Of a stretch of 64,000 nt of DNA, positions 315 to 64,000 are shown piece by piece. Position 1 is the stretch's first letter. Each line of letters begins with the position of its first letter. The stretch comes from Spongiibacter nanhainus (GTDB taxonomy: Bacteria; Pseudomonadota; Gammaproteobacteria; Pseudomonadales; Spongiibacteraceae). The stretch is taken from positions 3,003,001-3,067,000 of the forward strand of contig NZ_CP066167.1 in NCBI RefSeq assembly GCF_016132545.1, read 5' to 3'. The notes beneath the pieces are model-generated. The model was not told the origin of the DNA. It saw only the letters and a program-made list of their open reading frames with translations, and did no database searches. Both the position numbers and the translations under genes were made by a program.

Positions 315-397
<83 letters not shown>

Positions 398-436: not shown

Positions 437-632
437 GTTTCTGAAGTCTCAAATTTTCTCCCGTGACACTCCGTGACGTTTTCCGTGACGTTTTTGAACG
501 CTGACAAAATTCTCAGGCAAATTTTCTGACCTTCGGGCACCTTCTCGACTTAAGCGACTGCAAGGATGTATCTTTCAGAAATATGGACCTTGCAAAGAAC
601 CCTTACGTCTATCCTCAGCATAGAGCAACTCA

Positions 633-1505: not shown

Positions 1506-1742
1506 ATGGCACACACTTACCTAACCACAGAAGAGTTGTCCGCACGCATCAAATACGACGTACGAACAATTCGCCAACAATTAAACGACAGTGTCCTTCT
1601 TGAGGGGAAGCACTACATAAAGCCATTCGGGCGACGCAAAATTCTGTACCTCTGGGAAGCAGTCGAGGAAGAAATGATTGGCCGTAAAAACGCTCCTGAG
1701 CTGGAGATCCCCATGGCAAACGGCGAGGTATGTCATGGGTAA
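1506..1742 (+). CDS. Excisionase-like DNA-binding protein
   Basis: This is a 78-residue basic protein. A winged-helix-like N-terminal half begins LTTEELSARIKYDVRTIRQQ, followed by a segment rich in Lys, Tyr and Arg (KHYIKPFGRRKILYLW). Short proteins of this kind, often ending in MANGxxCHG as here, sit directly upstream of tRNA-targeting integrases and are thought to set the direction of recombination. The last 8 bp overlap the integrase start, so the two are probably translationally coupled. Confidence 0.75.
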   Translation: MAHTYLTTEELSARIKYDVRTIRQQLNDSVLLEGKHYIKPFGRRKILYLWEAVEEEMIGRKNAPELEIPMANGEVCHG

Positions 1743-2973
1743 AGTCAGAGTACGGAAAGATACTGGAAAACTGCTGCTGGACTTCTCATTTAAAGGAACA
1801 CGGTTTCGGGAACATACGGCGCTAACCGATAGTATTCAGAATAGAAAGCAAGTAACGAAGCTACTAGAACGAGTCGAGGCCAAAATTAAACTCGGTGAGT
1901 TCAACTATGCTGATCACTTCCCCGGCAGCCCGAACGTCGAGAAGTTTTTAGCTCTTCAGTCGCCTCAAGATACCGTTGAGAGCAATTCCAACTTGGCGTC
2001 GGCTGCTAGGACACGTTCTGGGCAACGCGCCATCAAGTCCCCACGATTCAAAGACTTCGCCCTCCAATGGCAATCCGAGAAAAAGATCGAGTGGCGCGCG
2101 TCCCACGCTCGCAATGTCGACTGTATTCTCCACGGTTCCCTCATCGCTTTCTTTGGTGCCATGCGCCTGCATGAGATCACCAAGGCCGACATTCTGCGGT
2201 TTCGGACGGAGATGGCCACCAAGCCTGGCCGGGGTGGCGCACCCCAGCGCTCGCCCAAGACCGTTAACACCCATATGGCCATTCTGCGCGCCATTATGGA
2301 GGAAGCGTCGGAACGCTTTAGCTTTGATAACCCTTACAAGAACATCAAACCGCTTAAGCTCAAACGCAGCCATGTGGAGCCGTTCTCTCTAATAGAGGTG
2401 AACCAGATCATCTCGTCAGTGCGCAAAGACTATAAGAACTACTATTCTGTCCGCTTTTACTCAGGCATGCGCACCGGTGAGATCGACGGCCTGCGCTGGG
2501 AATACGTGGATTTCGAGCGCGGCTTGATCTCTATCCGCCAAACCCTGGTCCAAGGGAAAACGGAATACACCAAAACCGATGGCAGCCAACGGGATATCCC
2601 CATGCTAGGCCCGGTGCGCCAAGCTTTGGAGTCCCAACACCGCGCAACAGGCCACTTGAGCCCTTATGTCTTCTGCAATACCGACGGCAAGCCTCTGGAC
2701 CACAACAACGTCACAAAACGCGTGTGGTATCCCCTACTCCGCCACTTGAACCTCAAAAAGCGGCGTCCGTATCAAACCCGTCACACCGCGGCCACCTTAT
2801 TATTGGCCTCCGGAGAGAACCCCGAGTGGGTAGCGCGGTTTTTGGGGCACGCCAGTACCGATATGCTGTTTAAGGTTTACTCCCGTTATATCCCCAACCT
2901 GACCCGGATGGATGGCTCAGCCTTTGAGCAAATGCTGGGGGTTCAGGAAGCGTCAGCCCTGGAGGAGTCTTGA
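1735..2973 (+). CDS. Tyrosine site-specific integrase of the island
   Basis: This is a 412-residue tyrosine recombinase. The N-terminal 60 residues match the arm-type DNA-binding domain (DUF3596-like), followed by a core-binding SAM-like domain around 110-215 and the catalytic domain. Visible active-site residues are R246 (GMRTGE), R349 and H350 (YQTRHT), H372 (LGHAS) and the nucleophile Y382 (KVYSRY), ten residues after H372. I chose ATG 1735, preceded by GAGGT and inside the end of the excisionase gene. It should catalyse integration and excision at the tRNA-fMet att sites. Confidence 0.93.
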   Translation: MGKVRVRKDTGKLLLDFSFKGTRFREHTALTDSIQNRKQVTKLLERVEAKIKLGEFNYADHFPGSPNVEKFLALQSPQDTVESNSNLASAARTRSGQRAIKSPRFKDFALQWQSEKKIEWRASHARNVDCILHGSLIAFFGAMRLHEITKADILRFRTEMATKPGRGGAPQRSPKTVNTHMAILRAIMEEASERFSFDNPYKNIKPLKLKRSHVEPFSLIEVNQIISSVRKDYKNYYSVRFYSGMRTGEIDGLRWEYVDFERGLISIRQTLVQGKTEYTKTDGSQRDIPMLGPVRQALESQHRATGHLSPYVFCNTDGKPLDHNNVTKRVWYPLLRHLNLKKRRPYQTRHTAATLLLASGENPEWVARFLGHASTDMLFKVYSRYIPNLTRMDGSAFEQMLGVQEASALEES

Positions 2974-6846: not shown

Positions 6847-7419
6847 TCACCACTCAAGGCGCTCTTTAAGGCTCTCGGCAAGAGCCCGATACCCTTGCTT
6901 ATTAAGGTGGACCAGGTCCGCCCGGTAAAGTTGGTTACGCCAGACATCTGTCAAAGAGTACAAATCCACCTGAACATACTCCGACTCTTTGATTTCAAGA
7001 AAAACATCGTGGACTCGACCTGTATGAGGGTTTGGTACAGCTAACAGCAGCACATTGACGCTGCTTTTCTCGGCAACGTTGAGCATTGAACGTATATGAC
7101 GAAGTGACTGTTCTGCGGGAATATTTCGGAGGAAGTCATTTATCCCCAGGCAAATTATCACGAGATCGGGATCTACCCGATTAATGGCGTTTTGAAACCT
7201 GCTCGACCCTTGGATCGCAGTATCACCAGGCACACCATCACTCAGAATTTCGATCCCTGTTAGCGCCGCCAAATATCGGGGATAACTGTACCCAGACCCG
7301 CCTACACCCGACGTCAAACTATCACCAAATGCCAGTATCTGAATTCGCTCGACAGGACGACCTGCATGATCGTCATTTACACTTAGACATCCAACACACC
7401 ATAGCGGACAAGTAGACAT
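6847..7419 (-). CDS. SGNH/GDSL hydrolase (TesA-like esterase)
   Basis: This is a 190-residue enzyme with the SGNH blocks in order: GDSLTSG (nucleophile Ser), GVPGDT (Gly), CLGINDF (Asn) and ADLVHLNKQGY (Asp/His). It is related to the lysophospholipase/thioesterase TesA. A cysteine-rich hydrophobic start (STCPLWCVGCLS) could be an export or lipoprotein signal, but the start is uncertain: GTG/TTG codons near 7458 would lengthen it, and no start has a good ribosome site. It could cleave esters or lipids at the envelope. Confidence 0.82.
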   Translation of the reverse strand: MSTCPLWCVGCLSVNDDHAGRPVERIQILAFGDSLTSGVGGSGYSYPRYLAALTGIEILSDGVPGDTAIQGSSRFQNAINRVDPDLVIICLGINDFLRNIPAEQSLRHIRSMLNVAEKSSVNVLLLAVPNPHTGRVHDVFLEIKESEYVQVDLYSLTDVWRNQLYRADLVHLNKQGYRALAESLKERLEW

Positions 7420-56095: not shown

Positions 56096-56965
56096 ATGAA
56101 AAAGGAATACTATGTCGATGGGGAGCAATCCCACTCATGTGTCGAGGTCTTCAGCAGTGAGGACGCCTTTGGCCAACCCATTTCGATCGCTTTTGCCCAG
56201 CTTTGGCCTCAAAGTTCTACGTTGAGAGAGTTCGATCACGAATGGCTGGAGTTCGACGAGAGAGACGTCGGTTGTCGAATAAGGAATAAAACCGCTAGGT
56301 CTATCGAAAATGCTTGCACCGACTTCGTGAAAACGTTCTATCCGGGTTGTGGTGTTGGCGTAAAATTGAAAAATCTAATCGCCAAAGACTGCACAAAGCA
56401 GAGAAATCAGCGCACTGTGTTGATGCTAACTGGCGACGATAATCACGATATCTCCGACAAATTATCTTTGGCGGTTTCCTTTGTAGGAGAGAGGCTGATA
56501 CAAAAACAAGGGGATTTGTTTTTCTCGGACAGCGTCAGCGGATTAAGCGTAGCAGACATTACCTTTCTTATGGACCACGTCGATAAAATCAGAATGGCTC
56601 TTTCTGGTTCCAAAATCACGCACCCATTCGCACTAGAAACGTTTGGGCCCGACCCGAGGGTTAGCGCTTTCTCAGGTCGCTTTGACGAATTTGAGTTCGA
56701 GCTTCCGGCTGCCGAGGAAGTTAGCGGTACGGCCACGGTGGATGGCTTCCGAGGGCATCATAACTTGGTGTATCTATCAATAATGGATGTCGATACGGTC
56801 GTTGATGCCTCCAAGACATTCGTTATCCACGATACGAAAATGTTGAAATTGATTACCGAAGCGAAACACCATGACGCGCACCTGAAGTATGTCGCGGATA
56901 AAATTTTTGAAAAAACGCCTGATAAACCCACATTCATACTAAAATCTGTCGAAATAATGAGATAA
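56096..56965 (+). CDS. Unknown island protein beside the giant recombinase
   Basis: This is a 289-residue soluble protein, not recognised. The N-terminal half has scattered Cys (SCVEV, CRIRNK, ACTDF, CGVGVK, CTKQRN). The C-terminal half is acidic and beta-rich (RFDEFEFELPAAEE, VYLSIMDVDTVVDASKTFVI). It converges with the giant recombinase-like gene (stop to stop, 14 bp) and diverges from the XRE gene. Confidence 0.65.
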   Translation: MKKEYYVDGEQSHSCVEVFSSEDAFGQPISIAFAQLWPQSSTLREFDHEWLEFDERDVGCRIRNKTARSIENACTDFVKTFYPGCGVGVKLKNLIAKDCTKQRNQRTVLMLTGDDNHDISDKLSLAVSFVGERLIQKQGDLFFSDSVSGLSVADITFLMDHVDKIRMALSGSKITHPFALETFGPDPRVSAFSGRFDEFEFELPAAEEVSGTATVDGFRGHHNLVYLSIMDVDTVVDASKTFVIHDTKMLKLITEAKHHDAHLKYVADKIFEKTPDKPTFILKSVEIMR

Positions 56966-56979
56966 TATTGAATCGCAAA

Positions 56980-59900
56980 TTACACCGATGACGAAGGTGG
57001 TGGTTGTTTAGTCGTTATTTTTTCTTGCTTGGTGCAAGCCAACGTGATCAGCAAACTTCCCGTTGCCAAAAATACTACTGCCAGCTGGTAGGCGTTCCGA
57101 ACTACGCCGTCATTGTTAGGACGAAAAATCAGCGCACCGTAATCAAAAATTCGTCCATTCCTCTCATCAACCTCGCGATTGAATACATCCAGTTGAAGCG
57201 GCTTTCCTGATTCATGAAAACTCCGTATTGGGCGGACTTTGAATTTATAGTCTTGAAGCAATTGCGTTACGAGAGGATCATCGTTCGAAACAGTGACATC
57301 GAATTGACTCTCTGAAATACCAAGAATGTCAAAACTCGCCCTCACTATCTCACAATGTCTCCCGTGACTCATTTTTATCATTCTCGTCATGCCCAGCAGC
57401 AGAGGCAATTCGTCGAAAGACGGTAACTGGATATCTGGTGAAGGTATTTCCAACTCGGTATTGCCCGCCAGCTCGAGAATTCGATCCCACGCAGAATCGT
57501 TGATGTAATGCAGCATCGCGTTCGGTGACTCCTCACCTTTGAACCATGCGTTTTCTCCGCGCTTTTTAAATCGCATCACACGATTGGCCGCATCAAAATT
57601 GGCCTGAATATCGTTGGCAAATCCCGGTTCTAACGACAGTAACTTCGCGGCTTGCGGGTAAGATCGTCCCTGCGACACGAGTCGGAGGAGCTTGAGTGTC
57701 AGCAAAAGCGTCGGTTTGCTAAAGCAAATTTGCGGTGGATTAACCGGAGCCTCTTGCTGTACGTGTTCAAAATCGCAAGTGTTGACCATACCTTTAATAA
57801 CGAGAGCCCGCCCTGTTTTGACCGGGGTCAGGGCGTCGGCCCATTCTGTGACAAGGTGATTATAATTTTTCAGGCCCGATGAAGGACCGCTGTGTCCCAT
57901 CAAACGTGACAAGCCCATGGAAGAGCGGATGGATACATCTACATTTTGGCCCAGTACCAGCTGCCTCAATTGATCAGTATTAATATGCTTGCATATCATC
58001 CGTGACGTCGGTGTTTCGAATCCCAACAGAATTGGCGCCACCTGGTTGTGAAACGCATGGCGGCAATGGTGCGTTGTCAGCGACTGGCTGCCGGTAATGG
58101 CGCGCAGTATTGATGTCAGCGTCTCCTGGATTTCCTGACAAACCGCAGCCTGTATCACTCTGCCTGATCGGTTCTCGCAAAGCAGGGGCATGTTCTTCTC
58201 AAGGCCAGCTAGGCTGTCATAGTTAGCAAGAACACGGTCGACCAACGCTTTCTCGCGTTGTGTCAGCACGAATAGGAGAGGAACTGCTCGTCGACTACTT
58301 GATCGCTTCAGCTGCCGAATTTGGTTGTCTCTCACAAGAACCCAAGTATAACCCTGCCATTGGCACCAGTCTTGACGACGAAGGCCAATCGCTTCACCCC
58401 CGCGAAGTCCAAACCTGAATGTTAAAAGGAGCACAAAGCCAAGGTAGAGAGCGAGTTGCTCGTTTGATTTATAGGCATGGTCGATAAAGTCTAGGCACGC
58501 GAGGTATTCCTTTTCACTGAAGCAGCCGGGGCTCACACTGCGATGGTTATCATCGGTGTTTATTTCAGACCAGTCTGGCCTTTGAATGCCAAATCTCTCC
58601 GCCCATCTGTGAAACGATTTCAGCCTCTTACCAAAATAACCCACCTCCCTGTCTCGTTCTCGCCGCGACGTTGCCATGTCATGATACAAGTCCGTGATCG
58701 ATTCCGAATCCATGGATAAAAGGTCGTGAGCATAGGCCAAACCCTGAAAAGCCAACCGAAGCGTACTGAAATAATTTTGGATTGTTCTTTTGGCGTACGG
58801 TCTGTGATGCTTTCCGCGCCCCTGCCCCTCTCGAATCACATGACTGATCCAATGAGCCATCATCTGAATCGTGGAGCTCACGCGCCCGAGATACGAATTA
58901 CACAGCTCATCTATTGCCTTGGCACAGTGTTTAGCAGATCTTTTTTCGTATCTATTGAGGGTAGTGGTCACGGCGTCATAAAACGCTTTCGCGTTGTCCT
59001 GGAGCGTTGCCGTATCGGCCACATACCCCGTGCGCTGACTTAAACTGAATTCATGCGTTTGAGTTCCAGTTAGAACATCCTGCGGTAGTTTCACGCAGAC
59101 GCCATGCCTCAGTCGAAGAAAGTCGGCCCAGTTAAGGCTCGTTGGTGGCATCCTTTCGCTTAATGCCGCAGCTACCATCCCTGGCAATTGGACGAGATTA
59201 GCCTGTTCAACGATTTTCGTCAGTCGCTTGATGAATGTTGATACGGAAAATGCTGCTATATCCTCTTCGGGCCAAAGTTCGAGTATGAGCGGACGCAGTT
59301 CTTTCGGTATTGGTAATGACGCGATATCAGGCAGTCTAGAGTTCGAGATACCAAACTGTAGCAGAGATGCGATTTTGTAGCCGATTTCGTGCCGCTGAAC
59401 TGGCTCTAGGAAATCATCGGTTTGCCATTCTTCGCTGTACTCAAAAAAGTAAGATTTCCGGTGTTGAACCAGCCGGAAGTTCTTCCCTTGTACCACATCC
59501 AGTAAGAGGCGATGGTAGCTCAACCGCTTTTGTATGCAAATCAGTGTTGCGCCAAGGATGAGCGCCTGTGTTTTATTGACGAGCCCTTTATGAATGGTTT
59601 CATTCGTTCTCTCGGCCCAAGCCTTTGCCCGCTTGTACCGGTCAAGGTCTTCAGGCAAGCTTTGCTGTACAAGGTTTCGCTCCTCTTTTCGCTTGAGCAT
59701 TCTTTTTCGGATAGACCGAGTATGTTTGCTGCCACGGGTCTTCAAGAATTGTTCAAGGGCACTGAATCTGATCCCTGCATCGGGGTGCGGTAACCCGTTC
59801 TCTCGTTTAAGTAGTCTGGTTGCAAGTGTTTCTATTTCTGATGGTTCGAAGTCTTCGAGTGATCTTTCGCCGATAAAAAGCGTGATCTCCTTCAGAGCAA

Positions 59901-62376
59901 TTCTTCGAGCGCTCTTGTAGCGCTCTCGCCGTTTCCGGCGTCGCTCTCTGATTCCGAATAAAGTGGGTTCGTCGTATCCCGGAGCCGTCTTAGTAGGGCC
60001 CGCGTACCCCGGGAGAATCGCCGGAGCGCGGATGACCGAAAATTTTAGCGCGTCATAAACACCGTTGTAAGTATCGCGATACCGATCGGCATCATCAATC
60101 CAGCATCTCGGGGAGTAGTCCCCATAACTCGCGCCTCCGCGCTCTGAGTGCCCCATCCAGCCATCGAGGGTATCGATGGGAATGCCTGCACGACTGAGTT
60201 GCTGCGAGTATCTGTGTCGAAACAGATTCGGTGGAAGCGACCAGGTCACTAGTGGCAGACCGAGGGCGTCGGAGTCAGAGGATTGATGCCAGCAAAGCTG
60301 CTCGTCTAAAAAGAAAAATAGGGGAAGGGCACACTCTGAACCGCTCAGAACCAGATGAATATTCTCAGCGAGTTCGGGTTTATATGACGCTATGGTGACG
60401 GCCAGCATCGCGAGATAGTTTAGGTATGCCTGCACCAGCACAATTAATTTGTCGGGCAAGGGAACCATTCGACCATCGTGGCGTTCGTCATCCGACTTGT
60501 CGTTGATATAGATGCAGCGGAACCTGAGATTTAAGTGCGCTAAAGACTCAAAAGGGGATTTAAGATATCGGCTACCTGTGCCCGCGTACAACGCCAGCAA
60601 GCAATATTGTGTATATCGGTTATGGAAGCTCACCAAATCATTGGCTTGAGCCACCAAGGATGCGGCGTGTGAGATACCTTCAAGGAGTACCGACTCTAGC
60701 GGTGCGAGCATGCTACCGAGCAGTAGTGTCCATTCATCAACCCCCTCCATCACCACTGGCCGGTCCAAGCCCTTGGCAATCGTTGTCACGTCCCAATTGG
60801 CATAACCGCAAGCCGCAGGTAAGCCGCTTTGCGGGGAGGCGGTCACCATTCGAGCGAAATGCGAGTCTCCAGTAATCTGAAAAGCTCGCTGCGACGCGAC
60901 CTGCCCCAACTTACCACTGGTGACACGCGGGAATCGTTCTCTGGCAATGGCATCGAACCACATTGTCATCTTGGTGGTAGGATTGATGGTACGCCAAAGC
61001 TGGCCTAGCGACGTCACACTTCCTATCTGAGCAGAGAGAGCGCTTTCCAGTACATGACTGACATCGGAGGAGAGTGCGATCCGAATAGTTCCGACAAACG
61101 GCCTTACTTGCGATCGCTGCTTTTCTGTTTCCGGTCGCCAGTAACTGCTTCGAGTCGGTGACAGCCGTTGCATATGGCGGCAATCTGGCGTGATACTCCA
61201 GTTGACCCCGAGTGAGTTATCGATAGTGATTCGCTCGGCGTGGAACAGTGACTCGCCAACAGTTGTTGCAATCTTGGTGATAGCCGCCCCCAGCGATAGC
61301 ACAGGGTCACCAGAGCAGATCGCTCCTGCCATCCACGCATTGACCTGCTCGATCTCTGGGGGCAAGAGTTTGTCCCAACTCCAGGGTAGAAACTGAGATT
61401 CTTCAGCGGAGTACAAGAAAACCGATCGAGAAGTCAGTGCCTGCTCTTCTTCGGTATCAGAGATATCGACTTCGACAAGTACATCGTCAGGCGCGTCCTC
61501 GCCATTTTCAGGCAGTCCCTGGAGAGTCAGTACACCTGGCAGGTCTGAGTCAGTTAATGGAACAGACTCATTGGCCATTCCCTCAATAGCGGTGTAGGGC
61601 CCCGGAATATCGATATCTGCTGAGAGCGGGAGTGGGCTGTTGTTACCCTCGGCAATTAAAATCAGGCTGTTTAGGAATGCTTTCTCTGAATCCGAGGCTG
61701 CAGTCGAAAGTGCCTTTGCAGATTGTTTGACCGCGTAGGTGAACCACTGGAAGGTCTTGGGGTACCCCTTCGTTTCGTGGCGAGCTTGGGTTAGAAGGTT
61801 ATCAACTAGCTCCCATTTTGGATCAATCTGGTCCAGGATGAGATGTCGAGACGCTTGACTTATGGATTTGTCTGCAATGTTCCCTTTTTCTGCAATACGA
61901 ATCGCCGTCTGGATGATCAACCAGAGCCGCAAACGCTGCCGACTGGTCGTAATAGCATCCGAGGCGCCATCCGACCTCGGGTTCACGACCATGGCGAGCA
62001 GGAAAAATCGAGTTTTCAGTGGCGAAAACTCGGCTTTTGTTCCGGATGCAGGTTTACCCTTGTGGGAAATGGGAGAATCGGCTCTGTGGATGTACTCAGC
62101 CGACTTCAACGCCAAAGAGAATTTCCAAAGTCGGCTGACTATGGGCCGATCGGCCCAATCTGATAAGATTGACTGCGAAATCGGTTGTGCGAACTCATTA
62201 GCAAAGTTGTGGATCGTGCGCGGATCGTCGGGCCGCCCCATACAGAAATATGCAATTTCAAGCTCTGGGTGCATCCCCGCACTGGCTGCCCAGGCCGAAA
62301 TGCCATCATAGGCCCTCGGTAGCCCGAAGGTCACAGGGTTTTCGTCTTGGCTGTGACACTTCTCCGTTTTGTCCAT
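56980..62376 (-). CDS. Giant protein with two tyrosine-recombinase-like domains
   Basis: This encodes 1798 residues. Domain 1 (about 570-770) has R603 (GTGSRYLKS), R720 and H721 (NLFRHRYSQQL, with N717 where His is usual), H743 (WMGHSERG) and Y751/Y754. Domain 2 (about 1120-1515) has a SAM-like core part, then R1325 (FGLRGGEAIGLR), a likely Lys near 1357, H1436 and R1439 (THHCRHAF), H1495 (LMGHSG) and Y1505. So domain 2 has the full R-K-H-R-H-Y set and domain 1 a partial one. A hydrophobic segment (1764-1781) lies near the end. It starts 125 bp from attR, so a role in island movement is likely but unproven. Confidence 0.8.
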   Translation of the reverse strand: MDKTEKCHSQDENPVTFGLPRAYDGISAWAASAGMHPELEIAYFCMGRPDDPRTIHNFANEFAQPISQSILSDWADRPIVSRLWKFSLALKSAEYIHRADSPISHKGKPASGTKAEFSPLKTRFFLLAMVVNPRSDGASDAITTSRQRLRLWLIIQTAIRIAEKGNIADKSISQASRHLILDQIDPKWELVDNLLTQARHETKGYPKTFQWFTYAVKQSAKALSTAASDSEKAFLNSLILIAEGNNSPLPLSADIDIPGPYTAIEGMANESVPLTDSDLPGVLTLQGLPENGEDAPDDVLVEVDISDTEEEQALTSRSVFLYSAEESQFLPWSWDKLLPPEIEQVNAWMAGAICSGDPVLSLGAAITKIATTVGESLFHAERITIDNSLGVNWSITPDCRHMQRLSPTRSSYWRPETEKQRSQVRPFVGTIRIALSSDVSHVLESALSAQIGSVTSLGQLWRTINPTTKMTMWFDAIARERFPRVTSGKLGQVASQRAFQITGDSHFARMVTASPQSGLPAACGYANWDVTTIAKGLDRPVVMEGVDEWTLLLGSMLAPLESVLLEGISHAASLVAQANDLVSFHNRYTQYCLLALYAGTGSRYLKSPFESLAHLNLRFRCIYINDKSDDERHDGRMVPLPDKLIVLVQAYLNYLAMLAVTIASYKPELAENIHLVLSGSECALPLFFFLDEQLCWHQSSDSDALGLPLVTWSLPPNLFRHRYSQQLSRAGIPIDTLDGWMGHSERGGASYGDYSPRCWIDDADRYRDTYNGVYDALKFSVIRAPAILPGYAGPTKTAPGYDEPTLFGIRERRRKRRERYKSARRIALKEITLFIGERSLEDFEPSEIETLATRLLKRENGLPHPDAGIRFSALEQFLKTRGSKHTRSIRKRMLKRKEERNLVQQSLPEDLDRYKRAKAWAERTNETIHKGLVNKTQALILGATLICIQKRLSYHRLLLDVVQGKNFRLVQHRKSYFFEYSEEWQTDDFLEPVQRHEIGYKIASLLQFGISNSRLPDIASLPIPKELRPLILELWPEEDIAAFSVSTFIKRLTKIVEQANLVQLPGMVAAALSERMPPTSLNWADFLRLRHGVCVKLPQDVLTGTQTHEFSLSQRTGYVADTATLQDNAKAFYDAVTTTLNRYEKRSAKHCAKAIDELCNSYLGRVSSTIQMMAHWISHVIREGQGRGKHHRPYAKRTIQNYFSTLRLAFQGLAYAHDLLSMDSESITDLYHDMATSRRERDREVGYFGKRLKSFHRWAERFGIQRPDWSEINTDDNHRSVSPGCFSEKEYLACLDFIDHAYKSNEQLALYLGFVLLLTFRFGLRGGEAIGLRRQDWCQWQGYTWVLVRDNQIRQLKRSSSRRAVPLLFVLTQREKALVDRVLANYDSLAGLEKNMPLLCENRSGRVIQAAVCQEIQETLTSILRAITGSQSLTTHHCRHAFHNQVAPILLGFETPTSRMICKHINTDQLRQLVLGQNVDVSIRSSMGLSRLMGHSGPSSGLKNYNHLVTEWADALTPVKTGRALVIKGMVNTCDFEHVQQEAPVNPPQICFSKPTLLLTLKLLRLVSQGRSYPQAAKLLSLEPGFANDIQANFDAANRVMRFKKRGENAWFKGEESPNAMLHYINDSAWDRILELAGNTELEIPSPDIQLPSFDELPLLLGMTRMIKMSHGRHCEIVRASFDILGISESQFDVTVSNDDPLVTQLLQDYKFKVRPIRSFHESGKPLQLDVFNREVDERNGRIFDYGALIFRPNNDGVVRNAYQLAVVFLATGSLLITLACTKQEKITTKQPPPSSSV

Positions 62377-62461: not shown

Positions 62462-62478
62462 GTACAATTAATATGTAC
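62462..62478. repeat. Palindrome between attR and the giant gene
   Basis: GTACA (62462-62466) and TGTAC (62474-62478) flank an AT-rich 7-bp core. It lies 85 bp upstream of the giant gene start and 23 bp from attR, so it could be an operator or a recombinase arm site. Confidence 0.45.
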
Positions 62479-62500
62479 TAATATCGCCATTCTCATAACC

Positions 62501-62523
62501 TCCTGCCCCCGCTACCAACAAGA
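62501..62523 (+). repeat. attR: distal attachment site
   Basis: An exact 23-bp copy of 375-397. Immediately before it (62492-62500) lies CTCATAACC, identical to the tRNA anticodon-loop segment 347-355, with the intervening 19 bp of the tRNA missing. Confidence 0.9.
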
Positions 62524-62562: not shown

Positions 62563-62566
62563 GTTT

Positions 62567-62772
62567 GGCTCTACCCCATAAACGGGGGATGGCACTCATC
62601 TCACCCTGTTAATTACACCGTCCCATCCGCAGTGGGCCAGCACTCGCAGTCTGTAATTCTCAAAGTTTCGGCTCTACCCCATAAACGGGGGATGGCACTC
62701 ATCTCACCCTGTTAATTACACCGTCCCATCCGCAGTGGGCCAGCACTCGCAGTCTGTAATTCTCAAAGTTTC
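62567..62772. repeat. 103-bp tandem duplication at an IS end
   Basis: 62567-62669 and 62670-62772 are identical. The unit contains the left inverted repeat of the ISL3-family element plus the last codons of its transposase. The duplicated end may act as a second, alternative IS terminus. Confidence 0.93.
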
Positions 62773-63892
62773 TAAAACCATACGCTCGCCGCGAGATCAT
62801 TTCCATTTTGTTGTGGAAGCCTTCGGTGATGCCGTTGCTTTTGGTAAAGCGCCACATCGCCACTATCGGCTGTAACCAGGACCGCAAGGTGCGGGCTAGT
62901 GCGTGTAATGGGCTGGCCTCTAACTGCTCAACCAACGCGACGAAGGCCGGCAAACGGGCTTCGGCTTTCTTCCGCGTCAGGGTCTTGAGCAACACAAAGC
63001 GCACCAGCCGCTGCTTGGCAAGATACAGCGCCTGCAACACCGGGTAATCCGCCAAGTAACGCATCAGATTGGCATGCTGCTCATCACCCAGGCGCCACTT
63101 GTGACGACGCATCAGGCTGATCAGCCCTCGGTTCTTGCGCCCCTCCGGGTCGTGTTGCTGCCAGACCTTCAGGAAATGCTGATTGATCAATCTCACCACA
63201 TGAAATCGATCGGCCACAATCGTGGCGTTGGGGAAGTAACGGCGGGCAATGCTACGGTAGGTCTCTGACAAATCCATCACCACCACCTGGACCTGCTCTC
63301 TACCTTGTAAACCCCGTAAATAGCGGCGCAGGCTGGGTTCCGAGCGCCCGAGCTTAACGTCAAAGACCTTGTGGTTCCTCAGGTCTGCAAAGGTCGTGGC
63401 ATAGCCGCTCTTGCGGGTAAAGAAGTGCTCATCGATGCCCAGTACCCGGGGACAATAGCGACGATCTCCCTCGGACCGCTTCTGGCCAATATGGTGCTGA
63501 TACCAGCGTTCAACCGTCGCTGGGCTGATGCGGTGCGTCAGGGACAACTTGCGCTGGGTGACACCCCCGTCGTGCGCCTCGAAGACCTCCAAGCGATACG
63601 CCTCGGAGGCCCGATAACGCGGTCGTATCCCAACAAATGAGTGGCGGAAATACCGTCGGCACCCCTGGCAGTGGTATTTGGGCACCCGCAGGTGCAAGGT
63701 CAGAATCTGGTTGCCCTGACGGGTATGCTTGATGGTCCGCTGGTAGGTCGCCTTGATCCGCAAGCCCGCCCCCTGGCAGTGCTTACAGGGCGGCCTGATA
63801 CTCGGCTTGGCCCACACCTCAATACCCTGTATGCGCACGACCCGTTCAATCTCAAGGCCCGGTAGGCCTATAATCATTCCTGCGTGGGACAT
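62699..63892 (-). CDS. ISL3-family transposase
   Basis: This is a 397-residue DDE transposase. An N-terminal zinc-ribbon (PPCKHCQGAGLR, YHCQGCRRYFRHSF) and a helix-turn-helix (THRISPATVERWYQHHIG) precede the DDE_Tnp_ISL3 core. Catalytic positions are in LGIDEHFFTRK, VVMDLSETYRSIARRYFPNA and, near the C-terminus, TKSNGITEGFHNKMEM. The gene is intact, so the element may be active. Confidence 0.92.
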   Translation of the reverse strand: MSHAGMIIGLPGLEIERVVRIQGIEVWAKPSIRPPCKHCQGAGLRIKATYQRTIKHTRQGNQILTLHLRVPKYHCQGCRRYFRHSFVGIRPRYRASEAYRLEVFEAHDGGVTQRKLSLTHRISPATVERWYQHHIGQKRSEGDRRYCPRVLGIDEHFFTRKSGYATTFADLRNHKVFDVKLGRSEPSLRRYLRGLQGREQVQVVVMDLSETYRSIARRYFPNATIVADRFHVVRLINQHFLKVWQQHDPEGRKNRGLISLMRRHKWRLGDEQHANLMRYLADYPVLQALYLAKQRLVRFVLLKTLTRKKAEARLPAFVALVEQLEASPLHALARTLRSWLQPIVAMWRFTKSNGITEGFHNKMEMISRRAYGFRNFENYRLRVLAHCGWDGVINRVR

Positions 63893-64000
63893 CGGTAGTC
63901 TCCATTAAACTGTTTCGTCGCAAATTCAGTTTAATGAATGCCGGTGTCCCCCGTTTATGATGAAGAGCCATCTCGACTTCCTCACATCTGACCTTCGGGC

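Follow-up and report, generated by a model that had tools for sequence, protein, structure and literature searches.

The window analysed in the current work is a stretch of 64,000 nucleotides of the Spongiibacter nanhainus genome (contig NZ_CP066167.1, positions 3,003,001 to 3,067,000 of the forward strand), and it encompasses a genomic island which extends from an initiator-type tRNA-Met gene (315-391) at its start to CTCATAACC (62492-62500) at its end. At the latter end a single gene, here referred to as the tandem gene, reads inward from position 62376 and encodes a protein with two tyrosine recombinase-like domains, while an ordinary tyrosine integrase is located at the opposite end, approximately 54 kb away. 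The two-domain protein and its position opposite the integrase had been described in an earlier inspection of this DNA performed without database searches (the sequence-only reading). The presence of an intact tRNA gene and an integrase at one end, and of a tRNA-fragment repeat at the other, identifies the region as a tRNA-integrating genomic island. The features required for the argument are the following, with positions counted from the first nucleotide of the window:

315 to 391, plus strand: tRNA-Met(CAT) gene of the initiator type, with attL at the anticodon loop.
1678 to 2973, plus strand: ordinary tyrosine integrase gene, the partner at the tRNA end, reading inward beside tRNA-Met 315-391.
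56980 to 62376, minus strand: tandem recombinase gene (1798 amino acids), specifying an N-terminal region, a probable pseudo-recombinase domain 1, a linker region, a predicted catalytic domain 2 and a C-terminal region of unknown function.
57814 to 58518, minus strand: domain 2 (residues 1287-1521), with R1325, K1357, H1436, R1439, H1495 and Y1505.
59974 to 60693, minus strand: domain 1 (residues 562-801), with R603, K627, N717, R720, H743 and Y751.
62462 to 62478, no strand assigned: GTACA-7-TGTAC inverted repeat bordering the terminus on its inner side, the arms of which covary between families.
62492 to 62500, no strand assigned: distal terminus with the attR core CTCATAACC, representing the initiator tRNA-Met anticodon loop together with part of its stem.
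62501 to 62517, plus strand: 3' portion of the tRNA-Met gene, displaced to the outer side of attR, with 19 nt missing next to the core.

All 1798 codons of the open reading frame (ORF) at 56980-62376 are open and the product is a real single polypeptide, for which a search of the 4.08-Mb genome of the host revealed no second place at E <= 0.01. The sequence-only reading had postulated a single polypeptide with two recombinase-like domains, and this layout is shared by 30 full-length proteins, the window's included, on which ground chance or an annotation artefact was rejected. Every residue named in that reading is present (R603, N717, R720, H743 and Y751/Y754 in domain 1; R1325, K1357, H1436, R1439, H1495 and Y1505 in domain 2), yet its description of the first set as partial does not stand: K627, the beta-hairpin lysine, had been missed, and the set reads R, K, N, R, H, Y.

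Homologues were retrieved from several collections (G numbers denote genomes and L numbers loci). When 293 related genomes were searched at the protein level, 18 contained matches at E <= 1e-10, with ten full-length copies of the window type, that of the window itself among them (G000, G001, G003, two in G004, G007, two in G010, G013 and G250), and a class-wide draw of 369 genomes gave eight matches at the same threshold, the own genome being one of them. A scan of a species-genome collection with two profile-derived peptide patterns yielded 32 loci, all Gammaproteobacteria by title except one labelled only Pseudomonadota, in Zhongshania, Spongiibacter, Marinobacter, Halomonas, Vreelandella, Thalassolituus, Denitrificimonas, Marinospirillum and other genera; the carriers of tandem-gene islands are mostly marine or salt-loving bacteria. 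The 30 full-length proteins were aligned with omission of every ORF of 1700 amino acids or less and of L079, L080, L081, L089 and L092, which are the same places as G003, G004, G001, G004 and G013, respectively. With alignment numbers being one lower than ORF numbers (R1324 corresponding to R1325), R1324, K1356, H1435, R1438, H1494 and Y1504 of domain 2 as well as R602, K626, N716, R719 and H742 of domain 1 occur in 30/30 proteins, such that of the 12 catalytic columns 11 show no variation. Y754, offered in the sequence-only reading as a second candidate tyrosine, is poorly conserved (13/30). Because this invariance is maintained at 32-63% identity to the window protein, as compared by halves for 24 of the 30 rows with near-copies dropped, the two-recombinase signal is far beyond chance.

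Profile searches for the two domains, a check proposed in the sequence-only reading, were positive in part. When the whole protein was compared with Pfam, PF00589 matched two stretches with 35.1 bits against a cut-off of 27.1; taken alone, the domain-1 stretch gave E 2.8e-4 (its best stretch being only 30 residues) and the domain-2 stretch E 6.6e-5, both below the gathering score. An XerD/XerC-like sequence was recognised by NCBIfam at residues 1190-1443, and Pfam returned no match for the stretches outside domains 1 and 2. The second proposed check, that of structure, involved AlphaFold2 models of each half built from the same 24 rows and compared with the PDB by Foldseek. The model of the C half (predicted local distance difference test, pLDDT, 80.9; predicted template modelling score, pTM, 0.66) matched 33 PDB chains at E <= 0.001, including XerH at 7e-6, and the 50 matches listed of 121 are all tyrosine recombinases. 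For the N half the best matches were XerA, XerH, the Tn1549 integrase, XerD and type IB topoisomerases, the lowest E being 0.007 with probability 1.00 (XerA), and the twelve best were XerA, XerH and the Tn1549 integrase (E 0.007-0.09, probability 0.60-1.00). As modelled, both halves are recombinase-like, the first with less certainty. Domain 2 belongs to the tyrosine recombinase superfamily by its R-K-H-R-H/W-Y set and predicted catalytic fold, and domain 1 by predicted catalytic fold.

In more distant islands and plasmids, a domain-profile search found domains 1 and 2 as two neighbouring genes on the same strand, encoding a domain-1 protein of 743-875 amino acids and a domain-2 protein of 995-1144 amino acids. 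Eleven such pairs and four other fused proteins (G263, 1755 amino acids; G114, 1756; G233, 1916; G123, 1350) were compared with 14 of the 30 window-family proteins and with one Sulfuricurvum protein, which consists of domain 1 only and is excluded from the resulting count of 15 distant relatives. Their domain 1 retains R, K, R and H in 15/15, with Asn at the His place in 13 and Tyr in two, while the place of the nucleophile is occupied by Tyr in one of 15 and otherwise by F, L, W or M. Since the tyrosine is retained in only 1/15, domain 1 is, to judge from these alignments, probably a pseudo-recombinase. The domain-2 tyrosine is found in all 14 distant relatives that can be aligned there (domain 2 of G123 is cut before the last two columns), and the His of the domain-2 HxxR motif is replaced by Tyr or Gln in 4/15. 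The loss of the nucleophile from the wider domain-1 family and its retention in domain 2 lend support to the suggestion of the sequence-only reading that one half is regulatory and the other catalytic; the built-in dimer which it also suggested is a hypothesis.

An arrangement in which both domains are catalytic, making the protein a covalent recombinase dimer, is very unlikely in our judgement. R, K, R and H of domain 1 are present in 30/30 window-family proteins and its tyrosine (alignment number Y750) in 27/30, so domain 1 could be active, which weighs against its designation as a pseudo-recombinase; however, the HxxR His is Asn in 30/30, the tyrosine is replaced by Trp in three (L085, L096 and L109), and 14 of the 15 distant relatives carry F, L, W or M at its place.

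In a tree of 28 proteins, from which G123 was omitted, one branch parts the fused from the split forms (support 95/92; rooting unknown, the G233 branch being long), and thus a single fusion or fission suffices. The sequence-only reading had known of no characterised protein of this layout, and the two-gene form found elsewhere and the regular integrase companion had escaped it; a literature search for a double-recombinase protein, judged by titles and abstract starts, gave nothing relevant. Split pairs also occur within the genus (L065-L066, L067 and L068, in G007 contig 2, G002 and G003), and a related integrase was not found in the DNA fetched for them. A Sulfuricurvum plasmid (L027, 4969-11866) carries four large adjacent genes of approximately 430, 787, 717 and 354 amino acids, the second of which matches domain 1.

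The attR site is real: CTCATAACC at 62492-62500 is joined to TCCTGCCCCCGCTACCA and lies 115 bp from the ATG of the tandem gene (125 bp in the sequence-only reading). The position of this terminus was determined for 32 genes with a 5' part, representing 11 places in G genomes and 21 new loci; L090, L098, L101, L107 and L108 were set aside as lacking the 5' part, and L102 coincides with the G009 locus. In 25 of these 32 genes, GGTTATGAG, the reverse complement of CTCATAACC, is situated 35-187 bp upstream of the start codon, the distance being 109 bp in 12 cases, 111-115 bp in eight, 185-187 bp in four and 35 bp in one (where a start codon further upstream was taken). Among four distant islands inspected within 1500 bp for an anticodon-core terminus, only the fused form G233 was positive, with CAGCATTATGAA, which corresponds to the same part of its own tRNA and lies 178 bp upstream of the gene; G285, G169 and G123 are without a clear counterpart. 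The sequence-only reading had staked its claim on matching folds and on homologues linked to island ends, and on both points the outcome was in its favour.

Just inside the terminus, and centred 30 bases from it, two 5-bp arms separated by 7 bp form an inverted repeat, a spacer of this length being as expected for a tyrosine recombinase core. After 31 termini had been collapsed to 24 distinct ones, the two arms were found to be complementary at 91/120 position pairs (76%), compared with 47% at the next best centre, and one column pair shows all four Watson-Crick types. Shuffled sequences gave a mean of 68/120 and 0/2000 shuffles reached 91, a figure tempered by the fact that shuffling was applied to the best-scoring of the centres tested and took no account of relatedness. 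The adjacency of the gene to this palindrome-like repeat may also be explained by a protein acting mainly as a regulator at the terminus (a repressor, synapsis factor or directionality factor) which retains a recombinase fold without cutting. Such a role, which would suit both a domain 1 devoid of a conserved nucleophile in relatives and the long regions without a Pfam match, is considered unlikely because a full domain-2 catalytic set (six residues in 30/30, with the tyrosine in 14/14 alignable distant relatives) is not expected in a protein that does not cut.

The ordinary integrase is the regular companion of the tandem gene. The facing order of the two genes recurs in G007, G001 and two G010 islands, as well as in G250, which belongs to a different family, with the G001 and G010 islands being arranged in arrays whose intact tRNA is located further out. 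In 20 of 29 loci (L115 and L141 being one place), the fetched DNA contains a tRNA of the initiator type (GGG-CTCATAA-CCC) ahead of the integrase. A relative of the partner integrase was detected in 21/21 tandem-bearing genomes tested, these being the genomes of 21 of the 32 pattern loci (that of L081 is G001), and in 19 of them its identity is at least 60%. Among the 293 relatives, an integrase of this class (at least 60%) is present in 10 genomes (in G003 as a fragment) and a window-type tandem gene in 10, nine being common to both; G009 has a cut tandem gene and no integrase of this class. The association extends to the distant forms, in that a relative of the window integrase is located in the same fetched region for six of the 11 split pairs (G169, G285, G170 contig 38, G175, G138 and L029), the pair facing it in five, while each of the four other fused genes is faced by an integrase relative further on; in G233 this relative is approximately 81 kb off by coordinates, beside an elongator tRNA-Met, and a second one lies directly behind the fused gene.

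These regularities bear on whether the tandem gene is an independent transposon-like passenger, of the Tn554 or SE kind, which by chance resides near attR and is unrelated to island movement. Large recombinases at one end are a feature of SE, GInt and Tn554 elements according to PMC10214605, and some tandem copies are kilobases away from the terminus, yet the regular spacing to the island's own terminus and the almost invariable presence of the integrase at the opposite end make a chance passenger very improbable. A phage origin was rejected, given that a phage collection yielded no match at E <= 1e-3 and viral contigs none to the exact peptide patterns.

Normal integration of an island into a tRNA gene is expected to leave the displaced tRNA half complete outside attR. 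At 29 of 31 termini this outer half is incomplete or gone, and in two it is complete. The number of nucleotides lost beside the core is five in 13 termini, eight in one, 16 in three, 18 in two, 19 in four (the window included) and 23 in one, the half being unrecognisable in five, while the inner boundary CTCATAACC is unchanged across termini. The exact initiator-tRNA pattern occurs once per genome in the 16 genus genomes searched (of 18), and with a single-copy initiator tRNA, the only copy would be damaged if attL recombined with an attR of this kind. In G001 (near C9:240300), the same tRNA holds an island without a tandem gene, whose attR is intact and which is without such a repeat, this being one case. 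An empty-site search with the right-flank DNA over 18 genomes matched the own genome only. The loss may be caused by an active tandem protein, by the integrase, or by decay of islands unable to leave. As an observation in its own right, L104 (Vreelandella alkaliphila) contains at 6963-7410, outside the terminus, three copies of a unit of approximately 149 bp starting with the tRNA 3' end.

One way of accounting for this scar is that, following integrase-driven integration, the tandem protein cuts the terminus so that the adjoining tRNA half is lost and the island is kept, the outer half-site of the integrase being destroyed and excision breaking the only initiator tRNA gene. The 29 termini without an intact half next to a preserved CTCATAACC, the same five nucleotides missing in 13 of 31, the single initiator-tRNA pattern in each of the 16 genomes and the intact attR of the tandem-free G001 island all point in this direction. 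However, two tandem-bearing islands (L082 and L088) possess an intact half, termini were found through a search for the core and those with a damaged core are therefore under-counted, the loss could be selected decay of non-excising islands or be caused by the integrase, and the control is a single island of another kind. Such end-trimming is regarded as rather unlikely.

The reading we prefer, tentatively and at somewhat less than an even chance, is that three recombinase domains at the two island ends move the island, the fused protein being a built-in pair of a pseudo- and an active recombinase which serves the distal end together with the integrase. It is observed that the protein has two conserved domains, that its gene occupies a regular place at the terminus, that the repeat covaries and that the integrase regularly accompanies the gene; the steps concerning DNA binding, catalysis, the make-up of the synapse and the link to the bases lost at attR are proposals. 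For the ordinary integrase, the site of action would be the anticodon-loop core within the initiator tRNA gene, with three adjoining direct repeats probably serving as its binding sites. The 1798-residue protein would constitute a built-in heterodimer, in which domain 1 is a DNA-holding pseudo-recombinase and domain 2 supplies the only sure nucleophile, and the binding site of the protein would be the inverted repeat beside the terminus. Tandem protein and integrase may then come together in a synapse between attL and attR (or between attP and attB) whose four subunits are not all able to cut, as modelled on Tfp with IntA and IntB in SEs, an idea drawn from passages on SE and GInt elements in PMC10214605 and PMC5385486.

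Several observations weigh against this preferred reading. The terminus is distant from the gene in L085 (712 bp, where the ORF starts late, at alignment residue 69), L104 (2.5 kb), L093 (3.6 kb) and L097 (6.8 kb), and is located on the other side in L084, beyond the 3' end of the gene; a search for it was negative in L095 and in L099, where the contig ends. Alternatively, the inverted repeat could serve the tandem gene as an operator. As to the partner, the genomes of L085 and L088 hold only 54% and 51% integrase relatives, G020 (a 70% complete genome) possesses the integrase while its tandem gene was not found, and in G169 the split pair and the integrase share one strand and do not face each other. 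The model of the N half is moderate (pLDDT 75.4, pTM 0.50) with zero Foldseek matches at E <= 0.001, its sequence profile finds XerD only at E of about 0.6, beside one unrelated chain, and the sequence profile of the C half finds zero PDB chains at E <= 1. The genomes searched represent mainly one order, and the scan that yielded the 32 loci detects only those with one of two peptide patterns. Finally, the arm sites and the TGACCTTCGGGC motif at the tRNA end, described below, are assigned by motif reading alone.

With XerC/XerD and phage-type tRNA integrases, the tandem protein shares the fold and the catalytic residues of domain 2. The heteromeric synapse of XerC and XerD, with its alternately active subunits, also offers a model for it. 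The window chain differs in holding two domains, one of which is without a conserved nucleophile in relatives. Gamma-Mobile-Trio islands of Gammaproteobacteria (GmtX, GmtY, GmtZ) reportedly carry more than one recombinase protein as well. Membership of this group was rejected: the GmtY model NF040693 (441 positions) gave weak matches, over the cut-off in 0/6 genomes or records and never at the tandem gene, and the window protein matched no Gmt family at E <= 1.

Closer in organisation are elements with several recombinases. According to PMC10214605, SEs carry intA, tfp, intB and srap, with three recombinase-like genes in one operon at one end, and share with the window an ordinary integrase, a recombinase-fold protein without the motif, a large catalytic recombinase and a small extra gene; in the window, however, the integrase occupies the far end, the two remaining recombinases are fused, and the intA-tfp-intB plus srap layout is absent. 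Kinship was rejected on the proteins of one SE, SE-6945, in that hidden Markov models of domains 1 and 2 and of the window integrase found nothing at E < 0.01 in its IntA, Tfp and IntB with filters off. GInt elements, as outlined in the relevant portion of PMC5385486, have three recombinase-like proteins of which GinC is without part of the motif, a likeness to the window islands, and give att variants after excision; they are organised as a four-gene ginABCD operon at one end, with protein genes as the named insertion sites. No such one-end operon is present in the window, and GInts were set apart on this layout, not on Gin sequences. An SE or GInt element with a single operon was rejected for the same reason, the integrase being at the far end. 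Tn554-like elements, according to PMC3414803, use several recombinases which act together, one being abnormally long. In Tn554 (TnpA, TnpB, TnpC) and RIT elements the genes are separate and adjacent, whereas here a fused pair has its integrase at the far island end; two or three adjacent recombinase genes forming a self-contained element are not found here. Judged by layout and, for SEs, by the comparison with SE-6945, the tandem system resembles SE and GInt elements and is not detectably a member of either.

Further features of the island are the following:

461 to 489, plus strand: three CCGTGAC direct repeats at 461, 471 and 483, candidate integrase arm sites by motif reading.
527 to 538, plus strand: TGACCTTCGGGC motif, inverted with respect to CCGAAGGTC of the tRNA, approximately 150 bp past the tRNA half, with similar motifs in most genus genomes looked at.
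56096 to 56965, plus strand: convergent 289-residue gene of a family of unknown function, beside the 3' end of the tandem gene.

Similar cassettes of direct repeats and TGACCTTCGGGC follow the initiator tRNA in most of the genus genomes looked at, even where no integrase was found in the fetched DNA. The family of approximately 290 amino acids is tail to tail with the tandem gene in 21/37 loci, the contig ending there in some of the other 16. The window member has zero hits in Pfam and NCBIfam at E <= 1 and in PADLOC at E <= 0.01, its L097 homologue has a weak NCBIfam hit (E 0.002, far below the cut-off), and the gene might, as a guess, be the positional counterpart of Srap or GinD. The small G009 island was rejected as a minimal integrase-free element, its tandem gene being cut (1010 amino acids) and its neighbour being IS21 istB by NCBIfam; the 508-residue gene beside that istB is probably istA. 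In G250 (L118, L040-L041; 891646-944620), approximately 370 bp of host-like DNA, comprising tRNA, spacer, second tRNA-Met and terminator, flanks the island on either side, as though integration had duplicated it. An ISL3-family insertion sequence (IS) at 62566-63970, approximately 100 bp of whose end is repeated, is located directly outside attR; both G010 tandem genes have a similar transposase immediately on their outer side, and G003 and G009 contain similar IS-end sequence close to the site. The cargo at 8800-49800 looks catabolic from the eight ORFs scanned (DUF1302, DUF1329, MMPL, PQQ dehydrogenase with cytochrome, an aldehyde dehydrogenase-MaoC fusion and 3-hydroxyacyl-CoA dehydrogenase), and ORF clusters of it are partly common to the G001 island. 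A metallophosphoesterase gene at 54198-55007 matches the PADLOC candidate PDC-S10 (E 2.5e-15).

The observation made in the sequence-only reading is hence confirmed and its interpretation partly supported, and what began as one odd protein has become a conserved recombination system with two ends, to which a regular partner, a definite DNA site and a scar belong. SE, GInt, RIT and Tn554 are known multi-recombinase elements, for which the need for a recombinase-fold partner without a full active site is a standing question; the fusion described here fixes a one-to-one pairing of the odd and the active partner and points to a DNA site, and can be tested with Y751F and Y1505F. If the losses at attR are caused by the tandem protein, they would represent the island's way of locking itself into an essential gene. 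A bolder proposal, which we consider doubtful, is that of a two-ended machine in which the fused recombinase owns the distal terminus and its asymmetric reaction with the integrase costs the host part of the displaced tRNA; if true, excision would destroy the only initiator tRNA gene of the cell, and the island would addict its host.

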